NCBI GenBank assembly: GCA_001557505.1
Contig: LSAX01000001.1
Span: 2,356,001-2,420,000 of the forward strand
Reading direction: 5' to 3'
Source of the DNA: Reticulascus tulasneorum
Taxonomy: Eukaryota; Ascomycota; Sordariomycetes; Glomerellales; Reticulascaceae
DNA length: 64,000 nucleotides
Part shown: piece after piece, positions 47,521-56,469 of the stretch
Layout: each line of letters starts with the position of its first letter
How positions within the stretch are numbered: the stretch's first letter is position 1
Notes under the pieces: model-generated
Told to the model about the DNA's origin: nothing
Databases searched by the model: none
The model's input: only the letters and a program-made list of their open reading frames with translations
Position numbers and translations under genes: made by a program

Positions 47521-49269
47521 ATGGCACCTCAGCCTGTCGCCCTGTACGGGCTCGAGATCCCCCCAGGCGATGTTCTGATTCCAGCATCCCCGGATTTCCC
47601 GGCATCTGTATGTATATTCTCGCATTTGCAAGAGTTGCGGCTGCTGCATTTGCACTTGCGCCTGCGATTTGGCGGATTTCAACACTCTTCTGTCCATCTT
47701 GTTGCTCTTACAAGAATCCAAGCTAACAATGGCATTCTTAGTTCCGTATTACCATGGCAGCCATTGACCCCACCGAGGCGCCCGAGCCTGACGAGGATGG
47801 AAACGTTCCTGCCGTTCCCCGTTCCACCCTAAGGCTCGTCAAGCAACGATTTGGTGATGACGAGGATGATGATGAGATCGATGATGAGTACATGAAGGCC
47901 CTTCTGGCTGCTTCCTCGTCCGATGATGAGGATGACGAAGACGACGAGGAAGACTCGGATGCGGAGCCCAATGGTGGCCCCAGCGATCCGTCCAAGTCAA
48001 AGAAGAAGAAGCAGGCAGAGGCAATTCAAAAGCTGATCAAGGCTGTCAGCAAGGATGAGGACGAGGAGTCCGATGAGGAAATGCAGGATGCCAAGCCCAA
48101 TGGCGTCAAGCCCGCCAAGAAGGGCAAGCAGGTTGCTACCGGCGAAGAAGACGATGAGGAGGAAGAGGACGACGAGGAGGACAGCGATGATGAGGACGGT
48201 CTTGACTTGGAGAACTTCGTCATTTGCACCCTGGACACTGAGCGTGTAAGTTTCGTCCAGGATCCAATTTATGCGGCCCAGATACTAACACTACGTTCCA
48301 GAACTTCCAGCAGCCACTCGACATTACTGTCCGAGAGGGCGAAAAGGTCTTCTTCGTTGTTTCCGGTACCCACACTGTTCACCTTACCGGTAACTATGTT
48401 GTCGATGATGATGAGGAGGAAGACGACGAGGAAGACGATGAGGATTATGACTTGCCCCCTGATGAGCTTGACTACGCCCTAGGCGAGCAGTTGTCGGGCG
48501 ATGACAGTGACGAGCTTGACGATCTCGAGGACCCCCGAGTTACTGAGGTCGACTCTGAGGAAGAGGACGCTCCTAAGCTCATTCCTGTCGAGACCAAGAA
48601 AGGCAAGAACAAGCGGCCCGCCGAAGAAGAAGTCGAGGGCCTGGATGATTTGATCTCCAAGGCGAGCAAGGTCGACGAGACTAAGCTTTCCAAGAAGCAG
48701 CTCAAAAAGCTGAAGAACAACAAGGGGGAAGCCGTAGCTGCCGAGGAAGCAAAGTCTACTCAGAAGGATGGCACCACAAAGTCCGATAAGAAAGTTCAGT
48801 TTGCCAAAAACCTTGAGCAGGGCCCGACCGGCTCGGCTGAGAAGGCCAAAGCAGCTGGCTCCAAGCCCGTTGTTGGCGTAAAGGTCGTCCAGGGTGTTAC
48901 CATCGATGATCGCAAGATTGGTTCCGGACGGACTGTTAAGAGCGGCGACACAGTCGGTGTCCGATATATCGGAAAGCTTACCGACGGCAAGGTCTTTGAT
49001 GGTGAGTTTGAGACGCCGTGATTATTCATTCTGCAAAGCATTGATTTCTGACCGAACTTGTAGCAAACAAGAAGGGCAAGCCATTTTCCTTCAAGGCTGG
49101 AAAGGGCCAGGTCATCAAGGGTTGGGATATCGGAATCATCGGTATGACCATTGGAGGCGAGCGGCGAATGACCATTCCCGCCCACCTTGCATATGGCTCC
49201 AAGGGCATGCCGGGTATTCCTGCGAACAGCACCCTCCAGTTCGACGTCAAGCTGCTTGAAATCAAGTAA
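47521..49269 (+). CDS. fpr4: Nucleolar FKBP-type peptidyl-prolyl isomerase (Fpr3/Fpr4 family)
   Basis: Prolyl cis-trans isomerase and histone chaperone of the nucleolus and chromatin. Exons are 47521-47607, 47742-48245, 48302-49001 and 49064-49269, giving 498 aa. Exon 1 gives [16 protein letters not shown], the first strand of a nucleoplasmin-like domain that resumes after a very acidic insert at [14 protein letters not shown] and [21 protein letters not shown]. Several Asp/Glu-rich tracts and Lys-rich patches follow, as in Fpr3/Fpr4. The FKBP catalytic domain is the last 110 residues: [13 protein letters not shown], then across the intron [28 protein letters not shown] and [14 protein letters not shown]506-binding residues such as the Trp of KGWD are present. 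The in-frame ATG at 47754 would remove the first strand and is not preferred. Confidence 0.95.
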
Positions 49270-50131: not shown

Positions 50132-52824
50132 ATGCATCGTCACTTCGTCAACGAAAGCTCCGTTTCCCTCGGCAACCCTCTTTCTGATCAGTGGTCCGGA
50201 TCTCCATTGGTAACTGGATCTCTCGAGCTTTACCCAGAAGGCTTGGGCTTGGAGATTGATGGCACTGGGACGTCGCCGCAACGTCGAGTGGGGATGTTAT
50301 GGTCTAGCAAACTCCAGGCCCGCATCCGGGGCATTGGGAGGAGCCGCAGTATACACCTCCCTATTGCAGTCATCAGCTATGTTTTCTGACAATTCATAGG
50401 CACCCGTGGATCTGCCGGTACTGACTTGAGTTCAAGTGCATCAAGATCACATACTCCCATGGTGAGGAGACTTCTGCGGAGGCTTTCCGAAAACTCGATA
50501 TTCGGAGTGTCTCCAAATACTACCATCCTACGGCGCGAATCGGTATCGAAAGACGGGGCCACTGTACCAATCCAGCCAAAGAGCCTCTCTCAGCCAAGTG
50601 CAGGTAGCTCACAGTCAAGTGGTGACCAGAGCAGCAAGTTTACAGTTGCTGACGAGTCAACCCGGAAAACATCCTTGGCGTCACAATTCTCAAGTCCGCC
50701 AGAAAAGCGTAATGGCAGGCGTAGCCTTTTGGGCTTATTCAATCCTTACGGTCCTCTGGGTACCATTGAGGAAGTCGATTGGGATGGAGCCACCGTCATA
50801 ACAGTCGAGAGGGCATCTGCCGCCAAGATATACTTGGAAACGTATTACAAAGAGGTATTGGGTGATTATCCAACACCTCGCTCAATGCGGCGACGCCACT
50901 TTGAGTGCTTGCTCGATTGTAGCTTTGACCTCAACTACGTCCAGAAAGCGCAGCTGCGTCAGCAATTCTATCGTCAAGAAAGCTGCCATCTTCGAGAAAC
51001 CAGAGCCTTGAAGCGCCAGAGTAGCAAGGCAGCCCAAGAAGATGCGTTAGGGCCGTACTTCAACGATTACGAACCTATCAAGATCCTCGGGAAGGGAAGT
51101 TTTGGGGTTGTTAGACTGGTACGGGAGAAGCATTCCAGGCCGGGCTCTGGCCGGCGTCAGGTGTATGCCATGAAGGTGATCCGGAAGTCAGACATGATTC
51201 GGAGCAGTCAGGAGGGACATCTGCGGGCAGAGCGAGACTTTCTGGTCGCTTCCGAGAATTCCGAGTGGTACGTCTACACCTGGAAACAAACGACGATGGT
51301 TTGCATGGACTAAGTATCATTATACTAACAGTTTCATGCTAGGATTGTTCCTTTATTTGCCAGCTTCCAGGATGCTACGAATTTATACCTCGTTATGGAA
51401 TACATGCCAGGTGGCGACTTCCTAGGTCTTCTCATCCGCGAAAACACTCTCCAGGAGCGTGACGCCTGCTTTTACATCGCCGAGATGATTCTCTGCGTTG
51501 AAGAAGCACACAGACTTGGCTGTATTCACCGGGATATCAAGCCCGATAACTTCCTGGTCACAGCTTCCGGTCATCTGAAGATTTCGGATTTTGGTCTTGC
51601 ATTCGATGGCCATTGGTCTCATGATACGTCGTACTACAGATGGCACCGAGAGACCCTGCTGGGGAAAATGGGACTTGTCGTCGAAGGCGATGCCATTGAC
51701 CAGAAGGACGAGCGGAAGTTTCAAACATCCTACAGGCGGCACGCCGCTCAGGCAATGCTCGAAAAGCATGAGCCACCAAGAAGTGTTGGGAGTGTTGAGC
51801 AGCTCCTGAATTGGAGGGTCCATCACGGCAATCGGTCTTCTGCTCATTCAGTTGTTGGCACCAGCCAGTATATGGCCCCTGAAGTAGTCCAGGGGCAGAG
51901 CTATGATGGCAGATGCGACTAGTGGAGTGTCGGAGTCATCCTATTCGAGTGTCTTTACGGCCATACTCCATTTCTGGCGGACGAGGGGCGACAACAAACA
52001 AAGCAGAATATTCTCGTAAGTTAAGTATTCGGATTAACAAGGCTTGGCCCAACATGCTGACAAGCACTACTCAGAACCATAAGGAAATGTTCAGCTTCCC
52101 CTCGAGGCCGCAAGTCAGCAACGCTTGCAAGCATCTAATCTGGAGTTTGATTCAAGAAAAGGAGAGACGGTTATCGTCACTGATATACCATCAAAAGGAT
52201 CTCGAATGCAGTCAGGGTCCCAAAGCTGGGAATCTTTCCGGCTACTACGTCTTTGCCGACGATGCCCAGGATATAAAGGCTCACAGGTGGTTCAGGGACT
52301 GGGATATCCCATGGAACACCTTACAAATGGTGGCACCTCCGTTCGTGCCCCAAATCAGCAGTCTGGAGGATACGCACTACTTCGACGAGGAAGAGCCGAT
52401 CAGCGACTGGTCCGATTCTGTGGACTCCGTGGCAGTCGAGCCAACACCACAAGATATTAGGAATGTGCTCCGTACGTTCCGAAGCAGCGTCCAGACTTTT
52501 GCAATGCAGCTCATCGCGAACCCATACGATACACTCAAGCTGAGACAGATCGACCAACAAGTTGATTCGGCCCCCAGACTGCGCCCTCGTGAGAAAGAAG
52601 CGCTCAAGGACTTTGTGAGGTTGTATGGGCGCAAGGACCGCAAGCGTCCCAGAGACAAGCTCTTACGCGACGAGAAAACAAAGTCAGTGGTGATGCAAGT
52701 GAGAAAGAAGACTGCTTTCTTGGGGTATACGTGGCGGAGGGGATTGCCGATTGATCAGGACTTTGCGTCTGTTGCATACTGGGCTCCGCGACCTGGCTTC
52801 TCTAGTCGGATGGCCCTATACTAG
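50132..52824 (+). CDS. puk1: NDR-type AGC protein kinase of the PUK1/STK-21 kind, with one in-frame UAG
   Basis: Serine/threonine kinase of 835 residues if the internal stop is read through. Exons are 50132-50348, 50400-51267, 51343-52015 and 52075-52824; phases agree at all three introns. An NDR-like helical region (AAKIYLETYYKEVLGDYP ... RRRHFECLL) precedes the kinase domain at about residue 295. ATP loop GKGSFG, YAMKVIRK, HRDIKPDNF (around 424) and SDFG (around 444) are intact. A long insert, typical of NDR kinases, separates SDFG from VVGTSQYMAPEV. Then comes Cys-Asp-stop-Trp-Ser: codon 555 (51920-51922) is TAG where relatives have Trp in DWWS. The frame continues intact for 280 codons through the C-lobe to a hydrophobic motif FLGYTW with Thr805. 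In Fusarium graminearum PUK1, tandem UAGs at this place are corrected to UGG by A-to-I editing in perithecia. The same is inferred here. Confidence 0.88.
51916..51932 (+). promoter_or_regulatory. Candidate A-to-I editing site in a small hairpin
   Basis: CGAC (51916-51919) can pair with GTCG (51929-51932), leaving a nine-base loop that starts with the stop triplet TAG; the target A is 51921. Fungal A-to-I editing favours the A of UAG with U before it, and sites in hairpin loops. The stem is only four base pairs, so the structure is suggestive, not proven. Confidence 0.5.
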
Positions 52825-53161
52825 GCTGTGTGCAGAATGTAGAGGCTAGTCGTGCTGCTGCAATAGAGTATAGTTAAGACGGAAAGAGTTGAGCGTGAGT
52901 GGAGGGCATGGCACATTGGCAGCCGTGACCTGGTGGCAGGAGACCACAAGGATCAACTGAATAGAAATACGTTATATTCTTTGTCCTTTCTCCTCTGTTC
53001 TCGGTTACTAGGAGGGGCCGAGGCGCGAAAACCCTACTATTTTTGCTCAGAGCCTACAGAGTCTGGAGCCGTGTCGAGGTCAGTTGTTGCATTGAAATCC
53101 AAAGAGGTGCATGGCGCTTCCAGCCTACCTAGGTAGTCCACTCATTGCAAGCTTTTATCCG
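52825..53161. other. Convergent intergenic region
   Basis: Lies between the 3' ends of the kinase gene (+) and the F-box gene (-). It contains ACCTACCTAGGTAG-like sequence near 53126-53138. No gene is seen. Confidence 0.55.
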
Positions 53162-54292
53162 TTACTCCTGCTGCTCACCTTCCGTTTCGACCTCTGCAAG
53201 GACGGCTTCTGCTTTACTTAATACGGTTGGCCAGACGATGAGAGCTGCATCTGACCAAGTCTTCTGGGCCTGCAATATTAGTAACTCCAACATCTTCATT
53301 CTCTGGTAATCCCATATCGCGAATCCAAAGCGGCGGAATGGATCATATGCCATATATTGCAATGGCGGACGGGGGAAACGGCAGAGTTTGCCAAATCGGG
53401 AGCCGACGGCGTTGTTGCGTAGTTGTCTCCATGGCCTACTATCAAGTTCGGGAGGAGAATTCGGTGCCACCCAATATCTCTTGTAGGTGGTAGGCAACGG
53501 CGGGAGCTTATGAGCCTGCCTTACACCAGATGCTGGCTTTTCTTGAGATGGCTCGTCCACCCGCTGCATCTCCTGCACGTACTCGAAGATTGTCTTGAAC
53601 TGCTCCGGGTTTCCCTGCAAGCACCCGCAAAACTCTACAGCGTCCATGATCTCAAACCTGTAAAGGTCTTCACGGGGCCATTTGAGAAGTCCGTGCATTC
53701 TTGCATCTTGGAGATCTGAGAACAGTTGGAGCCGCCAGAATGCACGCACAACGCGCTGCTCTTCTACCCATGTCGGCGGCGACTCTTGCGCCTCAAACGG
53801 CTGGCACTCGGGTTTTTGCTTCCAGCGAGACTTTGTGTGATCGTACTTGAATTTCCCACCTATGGTACGGGGCACTACGAGAGCCCTGGTACGCTCGAGA
53901 TAATGATCCAGGCAGGAATAGCTTAATCGCCATATGTGTGCTGCGGAGGCCAGGAGGCCCCATACAACCTCCGCCGCCGTGTCCTTTGAGATGGATTCGG
54001 GGAGCGAGGTCGGGCCGTCGAGTGGATTTCCCATATACATTGCCTTGAAGGCGTCAAAGGTCTCACATGAGAGCGCAGATGAGCGGACAATCGCAGCGAT
54101 GCGGATGATGGTTTGGACTTCTCCCGGGAGGCTTGGCTGGAGCACTGTTTCGAAGATTTCTACGGCATAGTTTCTGAATATTGTGGCTGCGCCTGGCGAC
54201 GCTTGGACGAGGGCTTGCAGACTTAGCAGATCGGGAAGCGAGGTCATGATATCGAGGAGAACCTCGACGGGAAGGCGGTCGAGCAGACTCAT
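53162..54292 (-). CDS. F-box domain protein
   Basis: A 376-aa single-exon protein. The first ATG gives MSLLDRLPVEVLLDIMTSLPDLLSLQALVQASP, a standard N-terminal F-box that would bind Skp1 in an SCF ubiquitin ligase. The frame runs 34 codons upstream but opens with GTG, and the F-box is normally close to the N-terminus, which supports the ATG at 54292. The remainder contains Trp/Phe-rich blocks (VVRAFWRLQLFSDL, LYRFEIMDAVEFCGC, FGFAIWDYQRMKMLELL) but no WD40 or leucine-rich repeats. Proteins of this layout are numerous in filamentous ascomycetes and mostly uncharacterised; a substrate cannot be named. Confidence 0.85.
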   Translation of the reverse strand: MSLLDRLPVEVLLDIMTSLPDLLSLQALVQASPGAATIFRNYAVEIFETVLQPSLPGEVQTIIRIAAIVRSSALSCETFDAFKAMYMGNPLDGPTSLPESISKDTAAEVVWGLLASAAHIWRLSYSCLDHYLERTRALVVPRTIGGKFKYDHTKSRWKQKPECQPFEAQESPPTWVEEQRVVRAFWRLQLFSDLQDARMHGLLKWPREDLYRFEIMDAVEFCGCLQGNPEQFKTIFEYVQEMQRVDEPSQEKPASGVRQAHKLPPLPTTYKRYWVAPNSPPELDSRPWRQLRNNAVGSRFGKLCRFPRPPLQYMAYDPFRRFGFAIWDYQRMKMLELLILQAQKTWSDAALIVWPTVLSKAEAVLAEVETEGEQQE

Positions 54293-56469
54293 CTCGGGAC
54301 TCAACACGCGCCGTCCGGCCCAAATGCTAGTAAGTTCATAAAGATATTTCTGGATAAAATTAACAGTTGCTAGAAGGGTGGCTAAACTGGACACTCAAAA
54401 AGCGTGCGCCGTTGGTTTGGGTTTGGGTTTGGGTTTGGGTTCGGTCGTGTGAGGTATTGATGTTCATTCGCCGAGGCTGAGGCTCAAAACGACTAATGCG
54501 CTTGAGGAACCAGTGGGAGTCATCCTACCAAAGTCACCTATATCCCATCCCTCCTTTGCCTTGACGTTCATGTAACTCAAAACCTACTGCGTCGCCGGCC
54601 TTGCTTTGATGGCTTTGGCAACACATATATATTCATCATCATTTTGTGGCTTCGTAACATCATGTCTGGTGCAACAAGTCGAAAACAGCTAGGCGAGGGT
54701 ATCGTCCTGCCAGCTTGCGGAACCAAACTCGGAAAAGATTACCACCGTGGCAACAGTATCTGATGCGAGATCACAATAGACTAAAAGGATCTTTCGCATT
54801 TGCATTCGGCTGACAACCTGGATACGTTGAGGACACGAGCTCCATCTCCCTGGAAGCTTTTGCAGCCCCCGAGAGCGTGACAAAGAAAGAACCCTGCTGG
54901 TCGCATGGTAAATGAGTACGAAAGTCCCATACAGTGAAAGATTTGGTTAGAGTATAATTAGCAGGACATATAGCCACTTGTTTAGCTCCCGCTCACATCA
55001 TCTGCTTCGCATCTCGACCCGTACGCCTCATTTCGCATCAGATACTCTTCTCCGAGCTGAGACTTTTCCTCCAGTAACCCAACCACAGAGGCCAGCCCTA
55101 CTACGCATTCTCTCACAATGCCGGTGTGCAGCTTCACGGATGAAGAAGCTCAAAACAGAGAGTGAGAGCCATAGCTTCGAGACTGTTCCTGAAGACCATA
55201 TTTCCTTAGGAATCGTTCCAAAGACCTTCGCAGACAGACCTCATGTGAATGCCAACTTATGGGATGGAATAGAAGCATGATTGGCTCATGATTTCCATCC
55301 GTGACTTTCGCAGACTGTCTTTGCAAGACTTGGTCAAGGGGCTAACTACCCTAAGCGTCTTTAACGCGACCTCCTCTGCTATGGGGCGCTCAATATCTTA
55401 GCCTTGCCCATAGCCTCCAGCATAAGCTCACCTACCAACCATTGCATTGGGAAGGGGTTTGAGAGTAGTCAGGAGTTTCCTCTTCCAGTCCTGACGAAGT
55501 GTCCACTGTTAGGATCTGGTCATGAGCACTACTAAGAGTGTCGACGGCCGATAATCTGTACACGCGACGTGTCCTGCTCTAATACACAGAAAATGAAAAA
55601 AGGGCCTGAGACTGAGCTCGAGCACGGTCCGGAATACTGCCGAATACCCCTTGAGCATGATGAGATTCGACCGAAATTGTGCCCATTGTCGATCTCATTT
55701 TGCTTTTTTTCAATTTTTTCAATTTTTTCCCAGAAAGAAGCATGGTCTCGGGCCATCGAGATACGATCTCAACCATGTCTCCCAAAGCAAGAAGGGAGAG
55801 CAGATCCAATGCTCAGAGCTCCCATCGAGTCTCAGCTTGGTCTGTGCAAGTATCTTCCTCCCTGTTCGCTCCTTGCGTGGCCTTTCTCCGTGTCTGGAGA
55901 GGACCAATCAATTGTCGCGTAATCACGTCCACAGAATGGGGAGATAGGCGCCGCCAGGCGTGGTTTAAGCTTGAGACTTGGTTCGTCAAATTTGCTGAAC
56001 TACTAGTAGGACTCGAGGCATTAAGTACACAACCCTTTGTAGAGTCGATTCTACGATCGACGAATTTGACAAGTTCCGTCTGTAGCACACCATGGACGCC
56101 GGGATAAACCTCAAAACTTAGGAAAACTTAGCCGGCTCCATACCCGCAACCTTATCCCAAACTCCCTATTTAGAAGTTCGGCGGGACAAGTGACAGAACG
56201 CCTCAAGTATGATCGGATCGTCCTCTGGAGGAGAGAGACTCTCGATCGAGGTTTGGAAATCTTTGCCGGGCCGCACACACCAGAGCCTCTGATGAACTAG
56301 ACTCCGGAACAGCAGGCTCTGATTGTAGATCAATCTTGTGCTACTCGCGTTTAAATCTCCTGCGAGAAGCAGTAGGCTTGGTCCAACCCCTCAACTTAGT
56401 TGATGCCTATGTAGTCCCAGTGACGGTTCGTGGAGCTCGGTTGAATGCCTTCTCGCAACTGCAGGCCAA
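54293..56469. other. Gene-free stretch
   Basis: About 2.2 kb. It begins with the promoter of the F-box gene and its TTTGGG-like repeat. Short frames near 54978-55280 and 55532-56107 lack ATG starts or recognisable content; one is driven by a T-rich tract (two copies of CAATTTTTT at 55704-55724) that reads as a Lys-rich peptide on the other strand. The final part is the 3' side of PYM. No gene is supported. Confidence 0.5.
54414..54441. repeat. GGTTTG hexanucleotide repeat
   Basis: About four and a half tandem GGTTTG units in the region just before the F-box gene. It resembles but is not the fungal telomere repeat TTAGGG and lies in the interior of the window. Confidence 0.85.

Follow-up and report, generated by a model that had tools for sequence, protein, structure and literature searches.

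In the window (the whole stretch of 64,000 nucleotides analysed here), we identified on the plus strand, at 50132-52824, a gene that is, by sequence comparison, the sole orthologue in its genome of Fusarium graminearum PUK1 and Neurospora crassa stk-21, encoding an NDR/CBK1-like AGC kinase. Its reading frame carries a TAG codon at the position of the first tryptophan of the Asp-Trp-Trp-Ser (DWWS) motif. By analogy with these orthologues, we consider adenosine-to-inosine (A-to-I) editing of A51921 during the sexual stage as the best explanation for this stop, and a highly probable one. The finding is that of a known editing system recognised in another order, the Glomerellales, and its novelty is small.

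Gene structure and in-frame stop codon

The gene model, based on splice borders, phases and open reading frame, comprises four exons, all on the plus strand. Exon 1 (50132..50348), placed by phase and splice borders, starts with the ATG at 50132 and is followed by intron 1 (50349..50399; 51 nt, GTATAC...CATAG). Exon 2 (50400..51267) encodes the N-terminal region and the kinase N-lobe with its GKGSFG and AMK motifs (Pfam Pkinase at residues 296-450), and intron 2 (51268..51342; 75 nt, GTACGT...GCTAG) contains a branch-like CTAAC. The catalytic loop HRDIKPDN, SDFGL, APE and the interrupted D-(W)-W-S are encoded by exon 3 (51343..52015), delimited by the frame and the splice borders. Intron 3 (52016..52074; 59 nt, GTAAGT...CTCAG) separates it from exon 4 (52075..52824), which is supported by frame and alignment and holds the remainder of the C-lobe, the AGC tail, the hydrophobic motif with Thr805 and the final TAG. 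All three introns are bordered by GT and AG, agree in phase with their exons and contain branch-point-like sites. Once joined, the exons form 836 codons with stops solely at codons 555 (TAG) and 836 (TAG), i.e. a full-length protein of 835 residues. A second in-frame TAG lies five codons past the final one (window 52822-52845), and stop-loss editing at the final TAG would therefore add just six residues.

Codon 555 is the TAG at 51920..51922 (plus strand; reading frame AGA TGC GAC TAG TGG AGT GTC). Its A51921, base 1664 of the coding sequence, is the predicted A-to-I site, where UAG would become UIG and be read as Trp. We compared this codon with homologous kinases: 7995 candidates, those with most words in common, were scored, 3173 matched, and the best 120 of these were aligned. 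In these best 120 of 3173 relatives, column 555 is W in all 55 rows with a residue, the remaining rows being gapped, and column 556 is W in 69 out of 69 rows with a residue. The first-pass annotation had described a kinase frame open over four exons for 836 codons except for a TAG replacing the first Trp of DWWS, with the second Trp present and everything downstream intact, including the Thr805 motif. This description was confirmed, with a minor correction in that the 836 codons include the final stop; no other stop or frame break was found, and all 38 near-invariant residues past the stop are kept (see below). Thr805 lies within FLGYTW, and T occupies that column in 78% of the 120 rows.

Identity, orthology and genomic context

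The predicted protein matches the Pfam Pkinase domain (4.6e-53). Among solved structures, yeast CBK1 chains come closest in sequence (2.7e-75), with C-D-W-W-S as the aligned residues at the site. In a quick gene tree of 121 rows, from which the columns around the stop were excluded and in which long branches were flagged, the query clusters with both Glomerellales rows, Verticillium longisporum and Colletotrichum tofieldiae (SH-aLRT 92). Within the genome itself (42.8 Mb in 35 contigs), the second-ranking kinase match shares 46% identity with the query over residues 292-448. The neighbouring gene (48242..49266, plus strand; open frames 48242-49021 and 49045-49269) was identified by sequence match as an FKBP-type isomerase with nucleoplasmin-like and FKBP_C parts, and aligns with the N-terminal portion of a database protein from Stachybotrys (67% over 245 and 88% over 67 residues). 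This Stachybotrys model (P0002) combines the FKBP and the kinase in one fused gene model, probably an annotation error that has preserved the gene order. As the FKBP-kinase pair is common to Stachybotrys (Hypocreales), it constitutes a synteny mark of orthology. The CBK1-like DWWS match, the Glomerellales grouping, the FKBP neighbour and the single copy thus all support the PUK1/stk-21 identity that was first proposed for this gene.

The position of the fungus was also read from a UBR1 gene of the window (open frame of 2062 residues). Four Colletotrichum species match it at 83% identity, C. trifolii at 80% and Verticillium nonalfalfae at 79%; among themselves, these five Colletotrichum rows share 86-98% identity. 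These values place the fungus in the Glomerellales (Sordariomycetes), near Colletotrichum yet outside the sampled species. A short run of TTTGGG-type repeats was also observed in the window (54414-54441), just upstream of a minus-strand open frame (53162-54394).

Selective constraint on both sides of the stop codon

We then investigated whether the gene is dead, by measuring the identity of the query and of 87 Sordariomycete rows to 29 Leotiomycete rows (the 4 unnamed rows of the 120 were omitted). Orders and classes are those that we take the genus names to indicate. Over residues 296-530, which precede the stop, the query ranks rather low, with only 11 of the 87 Sordariomycete rows below it in identity to Leotiomycetes. 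Past the stop, 52 of these rows are below it for residues 565-630 and 65 for residues 640-800. The ratio of divergence after versus before the stop is consequently low in the query (1.04, whereas the rows average 1.21, sd 0.14), with 78 out of 87 rows at or above its value, and the same holds for the tail (1.47, against a mean of 1.68, sd 0.12; 86 out of 87 rows). In addition, the query retains every near-invariant residue (defined by a column conservation of 98% or more, gaps disregarded), i.e. 105 out of 105 before the stop and 38 out of 38 after it.

In a rival reading, the TAG is a plain nonsense mutation, either in a recently formed pseudogene or in a loss-of-function allele carried by the sequenced strain, and only one G-to-A change would be needed. 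Moreover, F. graminearum puk1 mutants are reported to grow normally (PMC4817773), and loss of the gene could therefore occur in a laboratory strain. However, the coding sequence offers 329 single-base routes to a stop (84 of them transitions), of which two yield TAG at codon 555 or 556; a stop arising at random would create TAG at one of these two known editing codons in 0.6% of routes and 2.4% of transitions. Since this lesion is the only one in the model, and since conservation past the stop is, in relative terms, higher than in most relatives, with all near-invariant residues kept there, a decaying gene is very unlikely. An assembly or base-calling error, the true genome reading TGG, would likewise need to hit one of the two published editing codons, and other long frames nearby in the window are uninterrupted (e.g. 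2062 and 921 codons); we regard such an error as highly improbable.

On the gene tree, the end branches of the two other Glomerellales copies measure 0.89 (V. longisporum, P0001) and 0.95 (C. tofieldiae, P0095), versus 0.34 for the query. One or both of them show the lowest identity to Leotiomycetes in three of the four regions compared, and P0001 is also lowest in the fourth. This divergence could possibly reflect relaxed constraint where sex is rare, both models being potentially faulty (the source flags P0095 as LOW QUALITY, and P0001 contains an internal duplication).

Proposed mechanism

In vegetative cells, the transcript would yield a fragment of at most 554 residues, ending inside the kinase domain. 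A premature stop located well upstream of the last exon junction can trigger RNA decay. The junction at intron 3 is 93 nt downstream of codon 555, so the unedited transcript may be degraded by nonsense-mediated decay, in which case the edit would control the amount of RNA as well as the length of the protein. In perithecia, Tad2-Tad3, enabled for mRNA by Ame1, would turn A51921 into inosine, and the UIG codon would be decoded as Trp, giving a full-length kinase for the formation or release of ascospores. Full-length kinase would then be confined to fruiting bodies, as the first-pass annotation had suggested. The editing itself, its sexual-stage timing, the decay of unedited RNA and the role in ascospores are predicted here from what is described in F. 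graminearum and N. crassa.

Alternatively, the short 554-residue product could be functional, or the stop could be read through without editing. The short product would end within the kinase domain, and the constraint downstream of the stop indicates that a full-length protein is made. As the final stop of the gene is also TAG, this codon is not reassigned. Furthermore, non-editable alleles are reported to fail to complement in both F. graminearum and N. crassa (PMC7306014). We therefore hold either version to be extremely unlikely, and editing remains the preferred reading.

Sequence context of the predicted editing site

Editing in F. graminearum is described as favouring U at -1, C or U at -2, A or G at +1, +3 and +4, G at +2, and hairpin loops (PMC9600606). 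The bases at the site (C, U, [A], G, U, G, G) match five of the six base preferences. This match carries little weight and is not independent evidence, because the codons for Asp, stop and Trp nearly fix it. Regarding the structure, the minimum-energy folds of all six windows of +/-15 to 50 nt around A51921 place it in a hairpin loop, with a local stem GAUGC/GUGUC (51912..51931, plus strand). In sampled structures, its probability of being in a loop is 0.99-1.0 for +/-15 to 25, 0.72-0.74 for +/-30 and 0.97 for +/-40. When all 84 UA sites of the coding sequence (A51921 included) were folded at +/-30, the mean was 0.31 and 23% scored as high as A51921. The hairpin does not count as strong evidence, in view of the probability of 0.33 at +/-50 and of the 201-nt minimum-energy fold, in which A51921 is paired. 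As modelled, the local stem would support editing only mildly at most.

Editing machinery and mating-type genes

In F. graminearum, the tRNA deaminase Tad2-Tad3 is reported to edit mRNA when the DUF726 protein Ame1 binds Tad3, an interaction that needs a Met-Val pair in Ame1; this pair is given as Met-Val in Sordariomycetes and Lys-Asn in Leotiomycetes (PMC11087585). We found three DUF726 genes (five matches) in the genome. One of them, an open model of 803 residues (C12:1857670-1860198, minus strand), is identified by its DUF726 domain and alignment as the AME1 orthologue, with 78-84% identity over residues 285-740 to its 17 top homologues, 16 of which are named Colletotrichum. It has Met-Val at the diagnostic site, while the two paralogues in the same genome have RN and LD. 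The Met-Val pair is at 30 from the hydrolase-motif Ser, versus 31 by the F. graminearum numbering, and the displayed rows are gap-free there. Among the 120 listed of 2474 AME1 homologues, the pair is MV in 40, KN in 58 and KS in 16, six others occurring once each; the named MV rows are, as far as we recognise the names, Sordariomycete genera, and the named KN and KS rows Leotiomycete genera.

Two deaminase genes were found by motif. The TAD2-like one (C25:2995947-2996381) has HAE and PCVMC, and the TAD3-like one (C12:3576337-3577407, ends obtained by arithmetic) has V replacing the catalytic E; both names are assigned from these motifs. At the level of genes, and as judged from sequence, the genome encodes the known editing machinery, i.e. 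TAD2, TAD3 with its E-to-V change and AME1 with Met-Val. Together with the otherwise intact kinase gene, these three genes support the earlier proposal that expression of the full-length kinase would depend on editing of the stop.

An alpha-box mating gene (C25:2745421-2745849, L031) and a split HMG-box gene (C25:2734204-2734455, L033) were also found about 11 kb apart, which makes a sexual cycle plausible. They are flanked by frames that we take to be APN2-like and SLA2-like. This layout is possibly a self-fertile (homothallic) arrangement, and the HMG-box gene could instead be MAT1-1-3.

Distribution of the tryptophan doublet in related proteins

Automated annotation is reported to bypass such stops with false introns, PUK1 being the published example (PMC4817773), and three kinds of annotation damage have been listed (PMC11169179). 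We therefore used residues missing at the DWW doublet as a proxy for a bypassed stop. A search for the DNA of relatives for the PUK1 alignment gave 18 pattern hits in viral_contigs and 58 in genome_contigs, with 0 confirmed in either set. The survey consequently reads protein models, as a proxy for codons, among the best 120 of 3173 relatives. In the 87 Sordariomycete models, both Trp are present in 20, neither in 49, only the first is missing in 16 and only the second in 2. One or both Trp are thus absent from 67 of the 87 Sordariomycete models versus none of the 29 Leotiomycete ones, and all 4 unnamed rows carry the full doublet. By order, the doublet is complete in every row of the Magnaporthales (6/6), Diaporthales (5/5) and Coniochaetales (1/1), and in part of the Sordariales (2/6), Xylariales in the wide sense (3/29), Hypocreales (2/38) and Glomerellales (1/2). 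As a control, the motifs GKGSFG, HRDIKPDN and SDFGL lack no residue in the same 87 rows. The gaps spill into the neighbouring motifs GTSQYMAPE (16-26% of rows) and CLYGHTPF (17-21%), and a variable stretch near residues 631-640 is gapped in about half of the rows of both classes.

The models also differ in where they resume: 16 restart at the second Trp, which fits a TAG at the first codon with its AG taken as a false splice site, and 23 restart at the following Ser, which fits a stop at the second codon. Three others restart just past this Ser, and 25 have larger gaps that are uninformative on which codon is concerned. False introns probably hide this stop in many Sordariomycete database proteins. 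The gene studied here offers such an intron, an in-frame stretch of 39 nt (51884..51922, plus strand) that begins with GTAGTC and finishes with ACTAG, a possible trap for gene finders. If this stretch were truly spliced, codon 555 serving as the 3' splice site, the stop would be removed; 65 of the 87 Sordariomycete models indeed have no residue at the column, and 16 restart exactly at the second Trp. However, splicing would remove residues 543-555, including the Asp of DWW, the intron would be shorter than the others of the gene (51, 75 and 59 nt), and no branch-point consensus was seen by eye in 51884-51922. Moreover, the predicted intron of the F. graminearum counterpart is reported as unspliced in cDNA and RNA-seq (PMC4817773, PMC7306014). 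Removal of the stop by splicing is thus extremely improbable.

The proxy agrees with the published states for Fusarium, whose rows are scarred, and for Pyricularia oryzae, which is intact (N. crassa and Claviceps paspali are absent from the rows). In Claviceps, seven rows appear scarred whereas C. paspali was published as intact. The initial expectation of TAG inside the class and TGG outside was half right according to this proxy: the Leotiomycetes all keep both Trp (29/29), but so do 20 of the 87 Sordariomycetes. With scars as proxy, the 121-row gene tree requires a minimum of 11 changes between the two states. As the stop is probably hidden in many of the models (67 of 87 being scarred), its true distribution must come from raw DNA.

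We tentatively propose that TGG and TAG have switched repeatedly at either Trp codon throughout the Sordariomycetes, depending on Ame1 and on fruiting. The stop would be present only with an editing-competent Ame1, and strong constraint would persist only in lineages that still fruit, as exemplified by the slower copy found here, in a genome with both mating-type-like genes, versus the fast copies of C. tofieldiae and V. longisporum. Taken jointly, these claims fall somewhat below an even chance of being right. Once such a toggle is mapped on DNA, a comparative analysis could distinguish an adaptive from a neutral origin of these stops.

Comparison with known editing systems

In F. graminearum, the UAGUAG of PUK1 (FGRRES_01058) is reported to become UGGUGG by editing in perithecia, N. 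crassa NCU03242 has UAGUGG, also edited in perithecia, F. verticillioides FVEG_01191 has UGGUAG, and Magnaporthe oryzae and C. paspali have G at both sites (PMC4817773). The editing level reported for F. graminearum at the site equivalent to A51921 is 91% (PMC11156358). PUK1 editing is reviewed in PMC7306014 and PMC5381528, the former describing ascospore or ascus defects upon loss of F. graminearum PUK1 or N. crassa stk-21. The machinery, and the idea that restorative editing resolves trade-offs between survival and reproduction, are reviewed in PMC11156358 and PMC12754623.

The closest case is N. crassa stk-21, an orthologue with a single UAG at the first Trp (UAGUGG), which differs by belonging to the Sordariales instead of the Glomerellales; editing in the present gene is predicted. 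F. graminearum PUK1, characterised by perithecium-specific editing and by ascospore defects on deletion (PMC4817773), is an orthologous kinase with a stop in the same motif, but in tandem (UAGUAG) where only one is found here. The F. verticillioides gene also has one editable stop, located however at the second Trp. The first-pass annotation saw the single UAG as a possible evolutionary intermediate. This idea has to be abandoned: because the N. crassa state is already published, with F. verticillioides as its mirror (PMC4817773), the single UAG is no missing intermediate. The correction of premature stops by Tad2-Tad3-Ame1 described in Sordariomycetes (PMC11087585, PMC11156358) is paralleled here, at the level of genes, by the presence of all three genes and of Met-Val in AME1. 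No report of this codon in Glomerellales was found in the titles and abstract openings of the matching open-licence papers. The gene adds another case with exactly the N. crassa state, and would extend a well-studied switch to the Glomerellales.

Finally, we looked for other genes with a premature stop codon. A loose search limited to the RID DNA-methylase family (PF00145) gave four domain matches, all four without an internal stop, a result that carries no weight either way, and the PF00400 matches were too repetitive to reveal a second such gene. Separately, WD40 arrays with many closely spaced repeats and long open frames were observed at C4:206654-207898, 218703-220199, 599799-601418 and 739743-741365, and presumably resemble fungal NLR-like incompatibility genes.
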